Source: Candidatus Kapaibacterium thiocyanatum (GTDB lineage Bacteria; Bacteroidota; Ignavibacteria; Kapaibacteriales; Kapaibacteriaceae). Taken from it: a stretch of 64,000 nucleotides of DNA. Position numbers and translations under genes: made by a program. Position 1 is the first letter of the stretch; each line of letters starts with the position of its first letter. Below the pieces are notes generated by a model. It ran no database searches. It saw only the letters and a list, made by a program, of their open reading frames with translations, and was not told the DNA's origin. The stretch is from the NCBI GenBank assembly GCA_001899175.1, contig MKVH01000008.1:62001-126000 (forward strand), written 5' to 3'. Shown piece after piece: positions 7,723 to 58,024 of this stretch.

Positions 7723-7751
7723 CGAGCCGGATATCGACGATATCCGGCTCG
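7723..7751. terminator. Perfect 13-bp convergent terminator hairpin
   Basis: CGAGCCGGATATC and its exact reverse complement flank a 3-nt loop between the nucleotidyltransferase gene (plus) and the AHSA1 gene (minus). There is no T-tract on either side. Its position and stability suggest a bidirectional terminator. Confidence 0.65.
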
Positions 7752-7766
7752 CTGCATGATGAGGTC

Positions 7767-8258
7767 CTACTTGCCTTGCTCGAGGATATCGTCCAGCCGC
7801 TGATGGGAGTCCTCCATACCCGTTTCCATACCGGACTGCACCATGCCGTCACGATCGGCCACGGACTGGAAGAGCAACTGCGTCGTGATCCTAGTCCTGT
7901 CATTCGGGAGAGCCTCGAAACGTGCGGTCTGCAGAACGACGTGGCCTTTCTCGGGCAGGCCCTCGAATTCGAAGGTCTGGATGATGCGCTCCGGCTTCTC
8001 GACTTCGTGAATGACGCCGTGGAATCCGTATTCGTTGCCGGCCGGATCCGTCTGCACGTAGCGATACGATCCACCGCTATGAGGTTCGAACTTCTCTAGG
8101 CGCATGGTGAGGAAACGCGGACCGAGCCATTGTACCAGCAACGCCGGATCGGTATAGGCGCGGAAGACCAGCTCGCGCGGTGCATCGAATTCTCTGGTGA
8201 CCAGGATTTCCTGTTTGCCGGGTTCGACGACGAGTGTCGTCTCGTTCTTGCTTGCCAT
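7767..8258 (-). CDS. SRPBCC/AHSA1-domain protein
   Basis: A 163-aa member of the START/SRPBCC superfamily, AHSA1-like branch: [28 protein letters not shown] at the N-terminus, then [21 protein letters not shown] and a C-terminal helix with QRLDDIL. These small lipid- or ligand-binding proteins commonly sit beside ArsR-family regulators, as here: the ArsR gene begins about 100 bp upstream on the same strand. The ligand is unknown. The start at 8258 is preferred to an in-frame ATG at 8312 because homology begins at the downstream Met. Confidence 0.9.
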
Positions 8259-20642: not shown

Positions 20643-22085
20643 TTATTCCCTCGCCACCTTCGTCAGCCAGTTCCGCAGGTTGAAGACGTTCGTGGGCATG
20701 GCACCGATATCCGCGAGGAGTTCCTTGCGCCGTGTGGCCATCTGCTTGTTGAACGGCTTCGTCCTGATGGTGATGAGGCGCGGCACGAGCTTGATGAAGT
20801 CCTTCAGCGCATCCATGTAATAGGGTGTGAGCGTCTTCTCCTTCTGCAGATAATGGCGGAAGGTGTCACATGCCGCAAGCGCCTGCTCGTACATCCCCGC
20901 TCTGTAGAGGCATGAAATGGTATAGGCACGGACCTGGACGTTGCAGATGGGAGAGGCGATGGAGCTCTGGGCGAACCAGCGCAGGGCTTCGTCGTCATGC
21001 CCGGCGCACATGGCGAGGAAGCCCTCGCCGAAGGCGACGACATCCGACCGTACGTCATCCTGAAGGGCCGGAGCGAAGCGCCTCATGTAGTCCCGGGCCC
21101 AGGCGTCCTCACCGCTCATGCCGGCCAGACGTACGACGTAGATGAAGTCCGGAAAGAGAAGATTGCCTTCCTGCATGTAGCCCAGAGCGATGTTCTCCTG
21201 CATGAGGAGCCACGCTTCCCGGAAATACCGCTCGTCGCCTTCCAGATTGATCTGTGCCGAGCAATAACCGGTGAGATGAAGGTGGGTCATGTAGGCATCC
21301 ATGTAGTCCAGACGCTCCCGGTGCTCCTGGAACAGTGACACGAGCTTCTGGAAGGCTTCGTGGGATCGATGCTCCTCGAGTTCGTAGACGGCCAGCAGGA
21401 CCTGTACCACGGGCGCGCTGGCGAGGCCGTCGTTGTCACGGAGGAATCGTACGATATCCGGTGCCATATGGAGCCGGAAGGGAGCGTCGTTGCTGTGACG
21501 CTCGTGCTGCATGAGGGTATACAGGCGGAGGAGACGGATCGACATGATCTGGAGAACGGCGTCGAGCTGGTCCTGCAGGATGATCCTGTTCGTCGTCGGC
21601 CGCACGAGCGTTTCGTAGATCGACTCCTCCTCCGCAAGACGCCATAGCAACTCGTACGAGAAGTCGTCCAGGACGGGTCGTGCGCCGATCTCCTTGCGCG
21701 TCTTCGCGACGAAGGCCTTGAATTGCGCATGCAGACGCCGCGATCGGAGGATGGAGGCCTTCGACCAGGTCATCACCATGCGCATCTGCATGGCCACCTC
21801 GTCGTCGGTGTGGAGCAGGGCGATGTAGTTCATCGCGAGGGCATGCAGGTCGGACAACCGGTGACGGAATGCGTGGTAGTCGTAGGCTTCTCCCGGAAAT
21901 GCCTTCGTATGGATCTCTTCGTCGCCAGGCCCGCCATCGAACGGATGGAAGTCGCCGAGCACCCTGCAGAGATCGGTCAACGCCTGGTTCTTGTTGTAGA
22001 ACGGTGAGGCCACGTAGTCGACGAACCGTCCCATCTCCTTCGTCGTGAACGTCCTGAGCAACTGAATGAGTTTCGGATCACGCAT
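20643..22085 (-). CDS. Helical (TPR-like) protein of unknown function
   Basis: A 480-aa soluble protein, all-helical in appearance, with no signal peptide or transmembrane segment. It begins RDPKLIQLLRTFTTKEMGRFVDYVASPFYNKN, a start I associate with a Bacteroidota family of unknown function whose members open with a short helix and an SPFYN/SSFFN motif. The rest contains repeating helix pairs (for example LRWFAQSSIASPICNVQVRAYTISCLYRAGMYEQALAACDTF) like tetratricopeptide repeats. A partner-binding role is likely but unproven. The start at 22085 is preferred; in-frame ATGs at 22130 and 22151 would add up to 22 residues. It is divergent from the large T9SS gene. Confidence 0.75.
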   Translation of the reverse strand: MRDPKLIQLLRTFTTKEMGRFVDYVASPFYNKNQALTDLCRVLGDFHPFDGGPGDEEIHTKAFPGEAYDYHAFRHRLSDLHALAMNYIALLHTDDEVAMQMRMVMTWSKASILRSRRLHAQFKAFVAKTRKEIGARPVLDDFSYELLWRLAEEESIYETLVRPTTNRIILQDQLDAVLQIMSIRLLRLYTLMQHERHSNDAPFRLHMAPDIVRFLRDNDGLASAPVVQVLLAVYELEEHRSHEAFQKLVSLFQEHRERLDYMDAYMTHLHLTGYCSAQINLEGDERYFREAWLLMQENIALGYMQEGNLLFPDFIYVVRLAGMSGEDAWARDYMRRFAPALQDDVRSDVVAFGEGFLAMCAGHDDEALRWFAQSSIASPICNVQVRAYTISCLYRAGMYEQALAACDTFRHYLQKEKTLTPYYMDALKDFIKLVPRLITIRTKPFNKQMATRRKELLADIGAMPTNVFNLRNWLTKVARE

Positions 22086-34223: not shown

Positions 34224-35638
34224 TGAGAGGGTTTCTCGCAGTCCTGTCCATCTCCATCATCGTGACGTCCTGTGTGCCGACGATCGTCCGCAAGGAAGTG
34301 AACACCACCATGCCCGAGCGCTTCGACGCCACGCGGGATACGGTGTCCACGGGTATGATGGAATGGCGGACATTCTATGCCGACAGCAATCTCATCGCCA
34401 TCATCGACACGGCGATGAAGAACAACCAGGAACTCAATGCCGTGATGCAGGATATCCTCATCGCGCAGAACGAAGCGAATGCGAAGGCCGGTGAATACCT
34501 GCCCTTCGTCAACGTCGGCGCCGGTGCCGGTCTGGAGAAGGCCGGCAGATATACGCGCAACGGCGTCGTCGAGGAACAGCTCGAAGCCACACCCGGACAG
34601 CGCTTCCCGGAACCTCTTCCCGACTTCACCATCGGTGCGAGGATCTCGTGGGAAGTGGACATCTGGAGGAAGCTGCGTAACGCCAGCGATGCCGCGACGT
34701 TGCGATACCTCTCCACCGTGGAGGGAACGCGCTTCCTCGTCGTCAACATCGTCGCTGAACTTGCTGGCAGCTACTACGAACTCATGGCGCTGGACAACCT
34801 GCTGGAGGCTCTCGACGCCACCATCGACATCCAGCGCAAGGCCCTCGCCATCGTCCAGCAGCAGAAGGAGGCGGCCAAGGCCACGGAGCTCGCCGTGCGA
34901 CGGTTCGATGCCGAAGTGTCGAAGAACGAGAGTCGTCGCTACGACATCCTGCAGCGCATCGTCGAAGTCGAGAACAGGATCAATCTTCTTCTCGGTCGAT
35001 ACCCGCAGCACGTCCAGCGTCCGTCCGAGCGCTTCCTGACCATGATGCCGGATTCCATCAAGGCCGGTATTCCGTCGTTGCTGCTTCAGAATCGTCCGGA
35101 CGTCAAGCAGGCCGAACTCGAACTCAAGGCCTCCGATCTCGACATCGACGTGGCACGGGCACGGTTCTATCCGTCGTTCAGCATCTTCGCCGGACTCGGA
35201 TTCCAGACCTTCGATCCCAAGTACATCGTCACCACGCCTGCGTCCCTCATCTACAACCTCGCCGGCGAACTCGTGATGCCGGTCATCAATCGTGCCGCCA
35301 TCAAGGCCGCATATGCCAGTGCCGGTGCGCATCAGGTGCAGGCCGCCTACAACTACGAGCGTACCGTACTCAACGCCTATATCGAAGTAGCGAATCAACT
35401 GTCGAAGCTCGAAAACCTGCGTCAGAGCTACGAACGGAGGAACAGGCAGGTCGAAGCTCTCACGGCATCGGTCGATATCGCCAACAGCCTCTTTCTCTCC
35501 GCGCGTGCCGACTACATGGAAGTGCTGCTGACGCAACGCGATGCCCTCGAAGCGAGAATGGAACTCATCGAGACCAAGGTGCAGCAGATGCGCGCCTATG
35601 TCGACGTCTACCGGGCCCTGGGTGGCGGATGGCGGTGA
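34223..35638 (+). CDS. TolC/NodT-family outer-membrane channel lipoprotein
   Basis: A 471-aa outer-membrane efflux component of the NodT type: lipobox ending at C17 (SIIVTSC), N-terminal RISWEVDIWRKLRNASDAATLRYL motif, and two long helical repeats (LLLQNRPDVKQAELELKASDLDIDVARARFYPS), which form the periplasmic tunnel. The third gene of the RND operon. A near-perfect rho-independent terminator lies 63 bp after the stop, closing the operon. Confidence 0.95.
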   Translation: MRGFLAVLSISIIVTSCVPTIVRKEVNTTMPERFDATRDTVSTGMMEWRTFYADSNLIAIIDTAMKNNQELNAVMQDILIAQNEANAKAGEYLPFVNVGAGAGLEKAGRYTRNGVVEEQLEATPGQRFPEPLPDFTIGARISWEVDIWRKLRNASDAATLRYLSTVEGTRFLVVNIVAELAGSYYELMALDNLLEALDATIDIQRKALAIVQQQKEAAKATELAVRRFDAEVSKNESRRYDILQRIVEVENRINLLLGRYPQHVQRPSERFLTMMPDSIKAGIPSLLLQNRPDVKQAELELKASDLDIDVARARFYPSFSIFAGLGFQTFDPKYIVTTPASLIYNLAGELVMPVINRAAIKAAYASAGAHQVQAAYNYERTVLNAYIEVANQLSKLENLRQSYERRNRQVEALTASVDIANSLFLSARADYMEVLLTQRDALEARMELIETKVQQMRAYVDVYRALGGGWR

Positions 35639-52839: not shown

Positions 52840-53712
52840 CTAGATTTGCGAAAATAGTTGTTGTTCGAATTGGACAGGTGTCATGTTGTTGATCGAAGAA
52901 TGGATGCGTTGTCTGTTGTAGAACAGGTGCGTCCAGCGATAGACAGTCGATCGTGCGTCTCTGAGGTCGTCGAAGAGCAGTGGACGTCCGAGCTCGGTCT
53001 TCATCCGTGCCCAGAATGATTCCATCGTTGCGTTGTCGTAGCAATTTCCTTTGTTGCTCATGCTCTGGATGAAGTTCCGCTTGGCAAGTTCAGTCCGGAA
53101 CAGATCTGCATTGTACTGACTACCACGGTCGGAATGGAAGATGATCGGCTCCGGCGGTAGACGTCGGCGTACACGGCAGGCATCGTCGAAGGCTTTGAGC
53201 AGTGTCCGGGTCTGCATCGAATGCGAGACGACCATGCCCAGGATACGTCGGGAGCACAGATCCATGATAGCCACGGCATAGGCCTTGCCATTGCGGCACG
53301 GCAGTTCCGTGAAGTCACTCACCCAGACCTTGTCAGGGCGATGGACATCGAATGATCGCTGCAGGAGGTTGGCCGCCGGAACCAAGGTTTTCGATGAATC
53401 CGTCGTAGGGCGGAATCGACGCTTCACGTTGGCACGGATACCAGCTACCTGCATGATTCGTTCTACGGTCTTGCGGCTGATAACCTCGCCCTCACGGCGC
53501 AGGGCATGCGTCAGGCGCGGACTGCCGTAGCTACCGTTGCTCGCTTCGTGCATTTGACGGATGTGCAACCTCAGGCGCTCGTGCCGAAGATGCCGCTCCG
53601 ATGGCCTACGGGACTTCCACGCGTGATAGGCCTGGCGGCTGATACCCAGAGCACTGCACATGAGCTTCAGAGGCCACTTCGCCCGACGTTCATCGACAAA
53701 ACGGCACTTCAT
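52840..53712 (-). CDS. IS3-family transposase OrfB (integrase catalytic domain)
   Basis: A 290-aa DDE transposase. The catalytic residues are D133 in WVSDFTE, D195 in FHSDRGSQYNADLF and E231 in NATMESFWARMK, with 35 residues between the second Asp and Glu as in IS3. The N-terminal part has the HTH_21-like RLHIRQMHEASNGSYGSPRLTHAL region. In IS3 elements the fused OrfAB transposase is normally made by -1 frameshifting; here the OrfB ATG overlaps the OrfA stop as ATGA. The gene appears intact. Confidence 0.95.
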   Translation of the reverse strand: MKCRFVDERRAKWPLKLMCSALGISRQAYHAWKSRRPSERHLRHERLRLHIRQMHEASNGSYGSPRLTHALRREGEVISRKTVERIMQVAGIRANVKRRFRPTTDSSKTLVPAANLLQRSFDVHRPDKVWVSDFTELPCRNGKAYAVAIMDLCSRRILGMVVSHSMQTRTLLKAFDDACRVRRRLPPEPIIFHSDRGSQYNADLFRTELAKRNFIQSMSNKGNCYDNATMESFWARMKTELGRPLLFDDLRDARSTVYRWTHLFYNRQRIHSSINNMTPVQFEQQLFSQI

Positions 53713-53999
53713 TTCGGGCGTTGCGAGAAGGAAGCCAGACCGACGGCCTCCTTTAGGATGTCACGCTCCATTTCCGCGCGTTTCAGCGCACGCTCCAGCT
53801 CGCGTATCCGTTGCTTATCCGTCTTCTCTGTCTCATCCACCGTCCTTTGGCCTGCATCCAGTATCCAGCGCCGAAGCGTTTCTTCGGCTATGCCAAGGTC
53901 TCGTGCCACACGCGTGTAGGGTTGCTTCTCTTCGACGACTAAACGTACCGCTTCTCGCTTGAATGCCTCGTCGTACCGTTCTCCTTTGGGACTTCCCAT
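53709..53999 (-). CDS. IS3-family transposase OrfA
   Basis: A 96-aa DNA-binding component of the IS3-family transposase, HTH_Tnp_1 type: GERYDEAFKREAVRLVVEEKQPYTRVARDLGIAEETLRRWI followed by a leucine-zipper-like RIRELERALKRAEMERDILKEA region. Its stop overlaps the OrfB start. Complete and apparently functional. Confidence 0.93.
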   Translation of the reverse strand: MGSPKGERYDEAFKREAVRLVVEEKQPYTRVARDLGIAEETLRRWILDAGQRTVDETEKTDKQRIRELERALKRAEMERDILKEAVGLASFSQRPK

Positions 54000-54085: not shown

Positions 54086-54982
54086 TCAGAGTTGACGTGT
54101 TGAAAACCGTTCTTCGTTGACCTTGTTGATATTCCTAATGTGTTGTCGTAGACCTCTGAGCCGGGGCTCGTTTGCTTGTTTCCCCTTGGCTTCTTGCAAG
54201 TTCTTCAGTGCTTTAGCTGTTGGGCGGAGCCGACATCTGGCAACCACAACACCTGTAATCTCAGTTCTTCCTTTAGAGAAGTGGGTCTTCTCCTTCTTGT
54301 GCCTGAAACCAGTGGTGTGGAGTATGGCCAGCACTCTTTTGGAAACATCGGTATGACGGAAATCCCATTGTGCAGAGATCGTGAGATCATCAACGTAACG
54401 GGAATACACTAGACCGCGTTCTTGGCATATGGCCATCAACTGTACGTCGAGTTCTCGCAAGGAGACGTTTGCGATGAAAGAACTGATTGGGGAACCGGTA
54501 GGCACTCTATTCTCGATGGTGACTAGTCTGGTCAGAACCTCAGCAATTTCAGGTGTAGTGAGGGTCTTGAGTGCCGAGTACACCATGCTCATGGTAACAG
54601 ACGGGAAGAACTTCTCAATATCCACAAGGAAGAAGAATTCGCTGCGTAGATGCTGGCGAGCATTCGAGATGTAGCTTCTTCCCTTCACACTTCCGTGAAC
54701 ACATGTGGGAAATTCAATACGTGACTTCAGGAACTCGTAAAGCTTCTCCTGCAATTGTTTGAGTCTGTGGCGTGGTTTCTCGATTCCACGAGACTCATTA
54801 TGGTTGTTTGGCTTCGGTACAGAATCAAAAGCGTAGAACTTGCCGTCAACATTCCGATTGGCATTGTCACAGTACCGAACAAAGTCTTCCCACGATTGAG
54901 TGAAACCAATCTGTCGAAGAAGGTATTGCTTATTCCCGATTAGTCTCGGTCTTAAGCGGGAAGATTTCTCTGAGGAAGGCAT
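54086..54982 (-). CDS. Retron-type reverse transcriptase
   Basis: A 298-aa RNA-directed DNA polymerase. The catalytic aspartates are D121 in FFLVDIEKFFPSV and D198/D199 in the YVDD box (196-199). Two retron hallmarks are present: NAXXH as N107-A-R-Q-H111, and a VTG-type motif as ITG at 242-244. Length matches retron RTs. In retrons the enzyme makes msDNA from an adjacent non-coding RNA. The start overlaps the end of the upstream XRE gene by 53 nt, and the 3' end lies 20 bp from the IS. Codon usage and base composition are A/T-richer than the core genome. Confidence 0.88.
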   Translation of the reverse strand: MPSSEKSSRLRPRLIGNKQYLLRQIGFTQSWEDFVRYCDNANRNVDGKFYAFDSVPKPNNHNESRGIEKPRHRLKQLQEKLYEFLKSRIEFPTCVHGSVKGRSYISNARQHLRSEFFFLVDIEKFFPSVTMSMVYSALKTLTTPEIAEVLTRLVTIENRVPTGSPISSFIANVSLRELDVQLMAICQERGLVYSRYVDDLTISAQWDFRHTDVSKRVLAILHTTGFRHKKEKTHFSKGRTEITGVVVARCRLRPTAKALKNLQEAKGKQANEPRLRGLRQHIRNINKVNEERFSTRQL

Positions 54983-55241
54983 TGATCTGCGGTTGGGTTT
55001 GTCGGAAGTACTCTCGTTTCTCTGGGGCTACTTCATCTTCGGTCATTGAGAGGAAAACGAATACACTCAATGGCATTCCAAATACAACACTTGCCCTTTC
55101 AAGAACACTTTGGTGAAGCGTCCGATCTCCCTTCTCCACAAGAGAAAGGTGGGATTGGGTGATCTCCAGTCGTCGTGCAAGCTCGGTCTGCGACAGACCG
55201 TGGAGCTCACGGAGTTTTTTCATTGTGCTGCCAACGTCCAT
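54930..55241 (-). CDS. XRE-family helix-turn-helix protein
   Basis: A 103-aa DNA-binding protein with an N-terminal XRE/Cro-type helix-turn-helix (MKKLRELHGLSQTELARRLEITQSHLSLVEKGDRTL) and a C-terminal helical extension. It overlaps the start of the reverse transcriptase gene by 53 nt, so the two are translated together. In phage-defence operons such proteins usually repress or gate the effector; that role here is inference. Confidence 0.85.
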   Translation of the reverse strand: MDVGSTMKKLRELHGLSQTELARRLEITQSHLSLVEKGDRTLHQSVLERASVVFGMPLSVFVFLSMTEDEVAPEKREYFRQTQPQINAFLREIFPLKTETNRE

Positions 55242-55348
55242 ACGGAGATGCGCAAAGATTCAATGGGAGAAGTAGTAGAGAGGCTGATCATTCAACACGC
55301 TGGGATTGGTCTTGGAATACCTGAGGCCACTGGAATTTTCCAGTACCG

Positions 55349-55573
55349 TTACTCGCGATCAAGAAGGAATTCCAACTGGAAGTCGCGAATCAATATCCAA
55401 AGCCACTTGGCTTCTGTCTTCATTCCATCACTGAAACCCGCATCGGGATCGAACATCCCTTCAAGCTCCTCGATGATTTCTTGAAGACGCCATCGTGCGT
55501 CGTGATCAAAAAGAGCGGACCTGTTCCGCATGAGCGACTTGGCCTCATTGCTGAGGCGGGAGAGATGTTTCAT
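55349..55573 (-). CDS. 74-aa helical protein in the RT operon
   Basis: A 74-aa acidic, helical protein (RLSNEAKSLMRNRSALFDHDARWRLQEIIEELEGMFDPDAGF). It has a strong AGGAG ribosome binding site 8 nt before its ATG and sits immediately downstream of the structured intergenic region. No family is recognised. The order structured DNA, this protein, XRE protein, RT looks like a retron operon with an accessory protein. Confidence 0.65.
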   Translation of the reverse strand: MKHLSRLSNEAKSLMRNRSALFDHDARWRLQEIIEELEGMFDPDAGFSDGMKTEAKWLWILIRDFQLEFLLDRE

Positions 55574-55596
55574 AACATCTCCTTTCTGAATATGGA

Positions 55597-55800
55597 AGAA
55601 ACTGCCACGCCCGCACTTGCGGGCGGGGGGTGTTCATTCCCGGTCGGGGTGACAGTTTCGACATAGTCCGCTCTAGGACCTCTCACACTTCCGGAGCTAT
55701 CTACAGGGGGTGTACGAGCATCGTCGTAGCGTTGCGGTGCCAAGCGGCATCGTACACGGTACGACGAAGACATGCGGCATCACATACTGCATGCGCCATG
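55597..55800 (-). ncRNA. Candidate structured non-coding RNA (retron msr-msd candidate)
   Basis: Four stem systems lie in 200 bases: an 11-bp stem 55597-55607/55648-55658 (one mismatch) enclosing a 7-bp hairpin with loop ACTT at 55607-55624; two interleaved perfect 8-bp pairs (55710-55717 with 55750-55757; 55721-55728 with 55760-55767), a pseudoknot topology; and a 10-bp near-match 55771-55780/55791-55800. It is upstream of and co-directional with the RT operon. Strand and ends are inferred. The remaining gap 55574-56034 shows no gene. Confidence 0.5.
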
Positions 55801-56034
55801 AATCCACACACGAGGAGTGGAGCCGAAGATGGTATCTCCAGCGGTGGTCATTGTCATCCGATCCGAATCAGGCAAGTCATTCAAAGAACGTGATACGAAA
55901 GTACTGAGCCCTATGACTCTGAGCAATAGAATGTTTTCCACACGAGCAACTGATGTAGGGGAGAGTATGTGTTATGGTCTACCGAATCCCTTGATGTTAG
56001 TAACGTTGTAGATAACTACCAAGGAGTAGATAAG

Positions 56035-56850
56035 GTGAGTAGTAATCCGAATGATGTGCTGGTAAACGGAATCCGTGTCCCTGAAGGTTGTATCCCTGCG
56101 TGGACGTTGGATGAAAGTGAAAAGAACAGGTTGGTTGATGACCGCCGTCCTCTCAACTACAACCCGAGTACGTACTTCCAGCCCATAGAACACATGGGCG
56201 AGGACATTATTGTGGGCTATCTGGGACACGTGGAGAGCCGTGGTAGAGCAGGCACGGCGAAGTTTCATCATGAGGTCTATCGGCAGTCCTACACCTACTT
56301 TATCGACTACGCCGAGGGCAAGCCTGTCTACGTGACATTCGACCAAGTGACCGTTCATCGTCTCTTACAGATTCAGCCACGGGCTGGTGAACCGCTCCTG
56401 TGGTACTGGAAACGCATTGACTCACCCAAGAAGATTAACAGCCGCCATATCTTCATGGTCATGCCCTTCGAAGAGGGTCCTCTACAAGAGTTCTACACCG
56501 TCAACGTTAGAGATTTTCTAACGCAGGAAATGGGCCTCATTGTCCAACGTGCTGATTCTGTGCATGATAACGACGTAATCAGCGACACTGTGCTCCAGCT
56601 AATCGAGGAGTCAGCAATCATAATCGCAGATTCGTCCACGGCAAACAAGAACGTGTTCTATGAAATCGGATATGCTGATGCCAAAGGCAAAGAGCTGATC
56701 CTAATGCAAAACCGCAGTGCAGGCTCAATCTTCTTCGACAAAGCCCATCGACGTGGAATTCTGTACGATATGGACAAACCCGAGCAGTTCCGTGAGGAGT
56801 TACTGGCAACGGTGAAGCATATTCAGAACCGAGTTGGACAGAACAACTAG
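56035..56850 (+). CDS. Nucleoside-deoxyribosyltransferase/TIR-like effector candidate
   Basis: A 271-aa protein divergent from the RT operon. Residues 137-265 resemble the nucleoside 2-deoxyribosyltransferase/TIR-like fold: HIFMVMPFEEGPLQEFY, then IIEESAIIIADSSTANKNVFYEIGYADAKGKELILM, with E210 in the NVFYEIGYA motif as the likely catalytic glutamate. The N-terminal 130 residues are not recognised. Such domains act as NAD- or nucleotide-degrading effectors in several defence systems, including some retrons. The GTG start at 56035 has AGGAG 8 nt upstream; an ATG at 55969 is the alternative. Confidence 0.7.
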   Translation: MSSNPNDVLVNGIRVPEGCIPAWTLDESEKNRLVDDRRPLNYNPSTYFQPIEHMGEDIIVGYLGHVESRGRAGTAKFHHEVYRQSYTYFIDYAEGKPVYVTFDQVTVHRLLQIQPRAGEPLLWYWKRIDSPKKINSRHIFMVMPFEEGPLQEFYTVNVRDFLTQEMGLIVQRADSVHDNDVISDTVLQLIEESAIIIADSSTANKNVFYEIGYADAKGKELILMQNRSAGSIFFDKAHRRGILYDMDKPEQFREELLATVKHIQNRVGQNN

Positions 56851-57365: not shown

Positions 57366-57773
57366 TCATACGAGAAGAGCTTCGGGCAAGACTTCCAAGT
57401 ACATCGTGGCTGATGCAGTACCGCCATCCTCGATTTTGGATTTCCTCAGGAAATCTTCGTGGTACGAGCGATGACGCATGTGCTCTTCATAGACCCTCCG
57501 AATCCGGGTGAACACGGCGTCGATGTTCTTTCGTATTTCGTTCACGTTGGGGGCCTTCTCCGATAACTTCCCATCCTTGAGGATGAATTTCCTCGGCACG
57601 GAAATACCCGTGGACTTCCGGGTTCTTCCCTTAGGGTTTGCCGGACCGATCCACCGTTCGCAGATCACCGTACAGATGAAGGTGCCTTTGGTTGCCTTGG
57701 CCGAGGCCACCTTGTAGAGGAAGGATACGTGCAGAGCATCGCGTCCTATGCCGATCGTTTGAGAGTAAGACAT
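57366..57773 (-). CDS. Truncated tyrosine recombinase (integrase) N-terminal part
   Basis: A 135-aa protein resembling the N-terminal arm-binding and first helical parts of Bacteroidota tyrosine integrases: KGTFICTVICERWIGPANPKGRTRKSTGISVPRKFIL, then KAPNVNEIRKNIDAVFTRIRRVYEEH. The catalytic core (R-H-R-Y) is absent; the frame ends after LEVLPEALLV. It lies 180 bp from the 3' end of tRNA-Glu, where an integrase would be expected, and is a probable remnant. The start at 57773 has AGGAG upstream. Confidence 0.65.
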   Translation of the reverse strand: MSYSQTIGIGRDALHVSFLYKVASAKATKGTFICTVICERWIGPANPKGRTRKSTGISVPRKFILKDGKLSEKAPNVNEIRKNIDAVFTRIRRVYEEHMRHRSYHEDFLRKSKIEDGGTASATMYLEVLPEALLV

Positions 57774-57839
57774 TACGTCTCCTGTTGGGTTGGAAAGTGG
57801 TGGCACCAGTGGTGGTCCTCCAGTTCCCTGTAAGACTGT

Positions 57840-57915
57840 CTATCGCCCAAAAACCCAAGGAGACTTTCCCTTCAATCCCGCTGCCTGTGCGATGTCCACA
57901 GGCTATCGCCCAAAA
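57840..57915. repeat. 13-bp direct repeats between integrase remnant and tRNA-Glu
   Basis: CTATCGCCCAAAA occurs at 57840-57852 and again at 57903-57915, 63 bp apart. Their position next to an integrase fragment and a tRNA 3' end suits integrase arm-binding sites. Confidence 0.55.
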
Positions 57916-57920
57916 TGACA

Positions 57921-57951
57921 AAAGGCTTCCCAACATGGTTGAGAAGCCTTT
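57921..57951 (-). terminator. tRNA-Glu terminator
   Basis: On the minus strand, AAAGGCTTCTCAAC and GTTGGGAAGCCTTT form a stem with one mismatch, followed by TTGTCATTTT. It directly follows the tRNA 3' end. Confidence 0.85.
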
Positions 57952-57952
57952 G

Positions 57953-58024
57953 TACACCGTACGGGAATTGAACCCGTGTTACCGCCTTGAAAGGGCGGTG
58001 TCCTAACCCCTAGACGAACGGTGC
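57953..58024 (-). tRNA. tRNA-Glu (anticodon TTC)
   Basis: A 72-nt tRNA on the minus strand. The acceptor stem GCACCGT pairs with ACGGTGT (G1-U72 wobble, as I recall for this group's tRNA-Glu). The anticodon stem CCGCC/GGCGG encloses CTTTCAA (anticodon TTC), and the T stem ACGGG/CCCGT encloses TTCAATT. The 3' CCA is not encoded. It is a common integration target and forms the right edge of the island. Confidence 0.95.

Follow-up and report, generated by a model that had tools for sequence, protein, structure and literature searches.

Classical retrons share an RNA layout in which an a1/a2 helix is accompanied by msr stem-loops located 3' of a1 and by a long hairpin flush with a2, and their msd is non-coding. 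As a group, retrons are further characterized by RT-DNA linked to RNA through a 2'-5' bond and by anti-phage defence. Type VI retrons, in the description of Shewanella phage MuM16-1 that cites Mestre 2020, are RT genes accompanied by two others, one for a DNA-binding protein and one for a small auxiliary protein (PMC8541194). They are bacterial anti-phage elements, known but little studied and so far characterized by their proteins, and no msr-msd description for them was found in the literature searched. Likewise, an RNA overlapping a coding sequence in a type VI retron was not described in the open literature searched, outside of which the main type VI surveys lay, and an earlier description is possible. 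Among other RT-associated systems, DRT2 is described as using a pseudoknotted template RNA and as building a new, repetitive gene on a template that is itself non-coding (PMC12039810). Termination by retron RTs and retron phage defence have been reported to depend on host RNase H1 (PMC8989520).

The locus described here lies in a window of 64,000 nucleotides (the whole stretch of DNA that was analysed) from an Ignavibacteria (Bacteroidota) genome and, judged from profile matches, is a type VI retron encoded on the minus strand and comprising a non-coding RNA, a small protein (SP), HTH_VI and RT_VI. It possesses the same operon of RT, HTH and small protein, from the same families, as the class of Mestre et al. 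2020 as used by PADLOC (RT_VI, HTH_VI, SP_VI; PMC8541194), with an SP that is very diverged. Its RNA has a layout in common with classical retron msr-msd RNAs such as Retron-Eco2 (PMC12405507), but encloses a translated, conserved gene and corresponds to no Rfam family, the only Rfam matches being tRNAs. The present analysis thus adds an RNA that overlaps SP, and for such folding across the gene we found no prior description. DRT2 is comparable in having an RT-linked structured RNA and in tying reverse transcription to protein coding; here, in contrast, the template would be an existing sense gene and the RT is a retron RT (DRT2 as described in PMC12039810). The features of the locus are as follows:

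55710-55767, minus strand: 5' hairpin and possible H-type pseudoknot, formed by perfect repeats just 5' of a1
55678-55692, minus strand: a1 arm (GGAAGTGTGAGAGGT), pairing with a2 and positioned as the a1 of relatives
55661-55674, minus strand: 5' arm of helix Hb (AGAGCGGACTATGT), just 3' of a1
55598-55659, minus strand: msr stem-loop, with outer stem 55649-55659/55598-55608 and inner hairpin 55619-55624/55609-55614
55561-55582, minus strand: predicted 9 bp hairpin (GGAGATGTT/AACATCTC) over the SP Shine-Dalgarno sequence and start codon
55349-55573, minus strand: SP, small protein of 74 aa, predicted all-helical, assigned by profile and position
55512-55524, minus strand: 3' arm of helix Hb, in SP codons R-S-A-L, pairing with the 5' arm
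55285-55508, minus strand: candidate msd, a branched hairpin built from SP codons and the 3' flank, with its base adjoining a2
55268-55284, minus strand: a2 arm (GCCTCTCTACTACTTCT), between the SP stop and the HTH start, pairing with a1
54930-55241, minus strand: HTH_VI, Xre-type DNA-binding protein of 103 aa (PADLOC HTH_VI 9.1e-23; Pfam HTH_3 4.1e-12)
54086-54982, minus strand: RT_VI, retron reverse transcriptase of 298 aa with a YVDD active site (PADLOC RT_VI 3.8e-63)

Assignment to type VI follows from the PADLOC matches of the RT (next best family 6.3e-45) and of the HTH protein. The RT is apparently complete, covering profile positions 33-277 of 279, and carries the retron RT motifs NARQH (NAxxH), ITG (VTG region) and YVDD (YxDD), with NAxxH and ITG conserved in alignment A1; the HTH_VI gene is located upstream, and the two reading frames overlap. 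SP was the best of 858 window open reading frames against an SP profile, with a weak E-value of 0.037, and occupies the same place as the SP of relatives, before the HTH gene. Its divergence is too great for a match to PADLOC SP_VI, a profile that 7 of the 10 members of SP alignment A3 do match, with relatives down to 8.6e-31. An AlphaFold2 model of SP (pLDDT 87) comprises four helices, for which Foldseek returned no convincing relative (best E 0.93). An amphipathic helix, C-terminal in most, was found in all 15 of the 15 SP proteins examined (moment 0.48-0.71), a predicted feature that suits a membrane- or protein-binding effector.

Other elements were also identified in the neighbourhood. 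An IS3-type transposase pair (52840-53999, minus strand) lies immediately downstream of the retron RT, and a search for the ends of the IS3 element as an inverted repeat did not find them. The divergent gene at 55969-56850 (plus strand) shows weak similarity to TIR effectors (PADLOC 1.5e-7) and to nucleoside deoxyribosyltransferases (Pfam 0.005), and from these matches may be a second defence gene. Further along, a short open reading frame at 57366-58024 (minus strand) with weak similarity to Arm-DNA-binding (integrase N-terminal) domains is found beside a tRNA-Glu gene, which together suggest the remains of an integrative element that brought the defence genes.

Related HTH and RT loci were collected by profile and alignment searches from Bacteroidota, Proteobacteria, Nitrospirae, Planctomycetes, phages and plasmids, and the 84 loci with an SP gene were used for RNA comparison. 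A single-protein scan of genome contigs yielded no relatives, loci being recovered by the alignment-based scan, and viral scans with the KS5 and MuM16-1 RTs as queries likewise yielded none. One group of type VI retrons was present in 99 of 5426 complete E. coli genomes, with relatives also in enteric phages and across Bacteroidota. Among the loci collected, L137 (~1.8 kb) belongs to E. coli P2-like prophages. The 84 related loci share one RNA architecture, consisting of an optional 5' hairpin, a1, an msr stem-loop, the SP gene and a2. Seven proteobacterial and phage type VI retrons with this layout and an SP of 48-83 aa (L095, L110, L100, L103, L139, L162 and L167) would suit a covariance model. 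In two type VI retrons on Aeromonas plasmids (L173 and L174, upstream of 1197) no SP is annotated before HTH and space for it is present, probably a missed annotation.

Within the window, two inverted-repeat pairs run out of the interval covered by the preliminary description (55597-55800), namely 55666-55674 with 55512-55520 and a1 with a2, and it is these two that proved important. The SP gene lies between the two arms of the a1/a2 helix, which pair with probability 0.72-1.0 in a fold of 55240-55720. Corresponding arms of different sequence occur in relatives, for example TTAAGTGAGTG/CACTCACTTAA (L009), AGAAGACTCTT/GAGAGTCTTCT (L007) and GGGTCGG/CCGACCC (L058), as well as GTAGATAGG/CCTATCTAC in a locus of the window's own family (L002). 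RNAduplex on whole flanks and local alignment against 12 shuffles (27 of 71) were both rejected as too permissive for reading this helix, and a mismatched-pair test was used in their place. Over 71 loci, a1 and a2 flanks from the same locus paired better than mismatched ones by 4.64 kcal/mol after correction for composition, a difference reached by 0 of 10000 permutations (kinship ignored), and of the 71 a2 flanks, the window's own is the best partner for its a1 flank. On a MAFFT alignment (A7), made without reference to pairing, 82.3% of a1/a2 cells pair, versus at most 50.5% when the arms are slid by 1-3 columns. Two-sided changes number 15 cells and do not exceed those of slid versions (up to 18), because several a1 arms are misplaced by MAFFT.

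Helix Hb joins the segment following a1 to codons of SP, with AGAGCGGAC (55674-55666) and GUCCGCUCU (55520-55512) forming nine perfect pairs at probability 0.85-1.0. Its 3' arm corresponds in Bacteroidota to codons for an N-R-(C/S)-S-L-like motif. On A7, 99.1% of 350 Hb cells are paired, compared to 39-67% for slid versions (none above 67.1%), and 34 two-sided compensatory cells were counted against 9.0 in shuffles, a count reached by 0 of 500 (kinship ignored). At one column pair, 18 loci have UA and 17 have CG, a swap that goes along with a Q or R codon in SP, and independent variants of the helix were identified in gammaproteobacterial phages (GCUGUUC/GAACAGC, GCUGGUU/AACCAGC, CUGCCAAAA/UUUUGGCAG and CUUUUGAAAA/UUUUCAAAAG). 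Mismatched pairs were again outperformed by own pairs over the 84 loci, with 0 of 10000 permutations as good (kinship ignored). Single-sequence folds recovered Hb and a1/a2 together in 60 of 84 loci versus 33 of 336 controls; such folds did not yield the two long-range helices together in 24 of the 84, many of which have distant RTs.

SP itself appears to carry both a protein and a structure. Its substitution pattern (pN/pS 0.34 over 19 pairs) indicates that SP is a protein-coding gene, and it has diverged less than HTH at synonymous sites (pS 0.43 versus 0.57), a reduction expected from the double constraint of protein and RNA. Measured against synonymous recodings in 80 loci, the 3' two thirds of SP fold with excess stability (mean z -1.66, versus -0.32 for a same-length HTH control; paired Wilcoxon p 2.9e-8). 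In the enterobacterial set, SP after Hb forms a single long hairpin whose final pair is adjacent to a2 and which contains compensatory changes such as GC/CG/UA; the fold of this RNA is conserved, and compensatory change was seen at 13-19 of its pairs, some of which lie in SP. The hairpin of the window similarly extends from 55508 to 55285, with a2 beginning at 55284. Just upstream of SP is the branched msr stem-loop, whose inner hairpin spans 55609-55624 and which is the strongest fold within the reported interval (z -4.46, 0 of 200 shuffles as good); relatives have a stem-loop in the same layout, widely variable in size and sequence. The 481 nt of the window RNA fold with z -6.04 (0 of 100 shuffles). 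Structure and covariation thus delineate retron RNA features beside the RT gene, comprising an a1/a2 inverted repeat, an msr and, by its placement, a candidate msd. Taken together, these comparisons make it very probable that a single RNA fold includes the SP gene.

The preliminary description had proposed a functional RNA on other grounds, namely four interleaved 8-mers in the H-type pseudoknot order. All four are present where it placed them, GTGTACGA (A, 55710-55717) pairing perfectly with TCGTACAC (A', 55750-55757) and TCGTCGTA (B, 55721-55728) with TACGACGA (B', 55760-55767), interleaved over 58 bases. Its further view that such density is unlikely by chance stands locally, since none of 3000 dinucleotide shuffles of the 395-base intergenic region produced an 8+8 bp H-type arrangement within 75 bases (7+7 bp: 55 of 3000). 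It is weaker across the window, where four independent 8+8 sites (7723, 21710, 34787 and 55710) were found against 0.7 expected, the others being perfect interleaved repeats at 7723-7793, 21710-21784 and 34787-34861. The pattern is therefore uncommon, not unique, and by itself is weak evidence for a site picked out of 64 kb. Folding gives a similarly divided result. The reported interval as a whole passed the comparison with shuffled controls that had been set beforehand (z -3.31, 0 of 200), and the branched stem noted beside the repeats is real and stronger than they are, the repeat region alone giving z -1.93 on the minus strand with 9 of 200 shuffles as good. Its minimum free energy structure retains stem B (A/A' being stem A) at -23.1 kcal/mol, versus -18.2 for stem A alone. 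As an RNA of the opposite (plus) strand the region reaches z -4.44, better than the minus strand, such that energy leaves the minus-strand nature of the repeats unsettled.

These results bear on the best surviving alternative, in which the retron RNA is real but the interleaving of the repeats next to it arose by chance in spacer DNA. Both crossing stems are perfect in the window, but searching 391 genomes of the class at the DNA level for a homologue of the intergenic stretch returned only chance matches of 23-38 bases, with no conserved or alignable sequence. This absence, the weak minus-strand fold and the three other sites in the window speak for a chance origin, while the local shuffles and the position of the repeats argue against it. 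The repeats lie ~18 nt 5' of a1, and at least nine relatives (L136, L137, L139, L162, L167, L168, L095, L100 and L086) possess a 7-12 bp hairpin within ~25 nt 5' of a1. Given this shared position, we read stem B as the window's version of that hairpin, with A/A' as a possible added pseudoknot, and consider a chance arrangement doubtful, if still to be taken seriously.

Alternatively, HTH_VI or the neighbouring HTH regulator might bind the repeats as overlapping operators on the DNA (half-sites TCGTAC/GTACGA), in the space separating the retron from the divergent gene at 55969. Consistent with this, a stretch of 58 bases flanked by divergent genes contains four related half-sites, the HTH_VI family binds DNA, a search closer to the retron revealed no sigma-70 promoter-like site, and folding of this region is also good on the opposite strand. 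Against it, a hairpin at this place 5' of a1 is common in the retron loci of relatives, and TCGTACAC with one mismatch occurs 86 times over the whole window, which indicates that it is not a site-specific motif; we therefore regard operator sites as unlikely. A search of the leader for a terminator-like site found none. Least likely of the three is that the long-range structure, though real, serves translational control of the operon mRNA by hiding the SP start and coupling SP to HTH, with the very stable stem-loop at 55598-55659 as the true msd: such a stem-loop also lies upstream of SP in relatives, and the SP start codon and Shine-Dalgarno sequence fall within a predicted hairpin, but a1 and a2 enclose SP and not the stem-loop alone, the hairpin flush with a2, the retron msd place, is SP sequence, and the stem-loop varies widely where Hb and a1/a2 are kept.

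The explanation we favour, with a probability of about 0.62, is that the reported interval forms the 5' part of a type VI retron RNA in which the SP message doubles as the msd. The preliminary proposal of a functional RNA is accordingly upheld for a minus-strand RNA, for which both the shuffle-controlled folding and the covariation among relatives give strong support, and is less well served in its particulars, as the conserved core lies 3' of the H-type pseudoknot, which takes the place of a simple hairpin in many relatives. The compensatory changes that had been looked for in relatives were found for the core, which reaches ~330 bases past the reported interval and through the next gene. The core, which is well supported, extends from a1, preceded by the hairpin, to a2 just before the HTH gene, with a1 and a2 paired around SP, the segment after a1 paired with SP codons, and the remaining SP hairpin flush with a2; the pseudoknot, if formed, would cap the 5' end. 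As a1/a2 and a hairpin flush with a2 constitute the retron priming layout, the RT should copy SP from its 3' end, and by this analogy SP is probably the RT template of the type VI retron. Priming near a1, the RT would copy the SP coding strand backwards from a2 into msDNA antisense to SP, and one RNA would be both mRNA for SP and retron template.

How this arrangement might operate is more tentative. Should host RNase H remove the RNA template here, as it does in other retrons, the SP message would be lost as msDNA is synthesized, and SP would go untranslated for as long as msDNA is made. A phage disturbing msDNA synthesis would then free the message, with SP, bearing its C-terminal amphipathic helix, as the putative effector and HTH as a regulator. 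It is thus conceivable, by analogy and at somewhat less than even odds, that msDNA synthesis consumes or locks the SP message, and that reverse transcription in cis acts as antitoxin to a small amphipathic effector. Type I toxin-antitoxin modules resemble this scheme in having a small helical (hydrophobic or amphipathic) protein whose message is locked in structure, but here there is no antisense RNA gene, control would be exerted by reverse transcription in cis, and the toxicity of SP is putative. Counting against the favoured explanation, translation and structure would compete for the same RNA in the SP region, and the switch between them is putative.

If a retron RNA does indeed include a translated gene and pair with it, this would be a new arrangement, and would provide a reason for the SP gene always being in front of the HTH gene. 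It would also suggest that reverse transcription itself could control a toxin message, and why searches for a non-coding msr-msd would miss type VI retrons.
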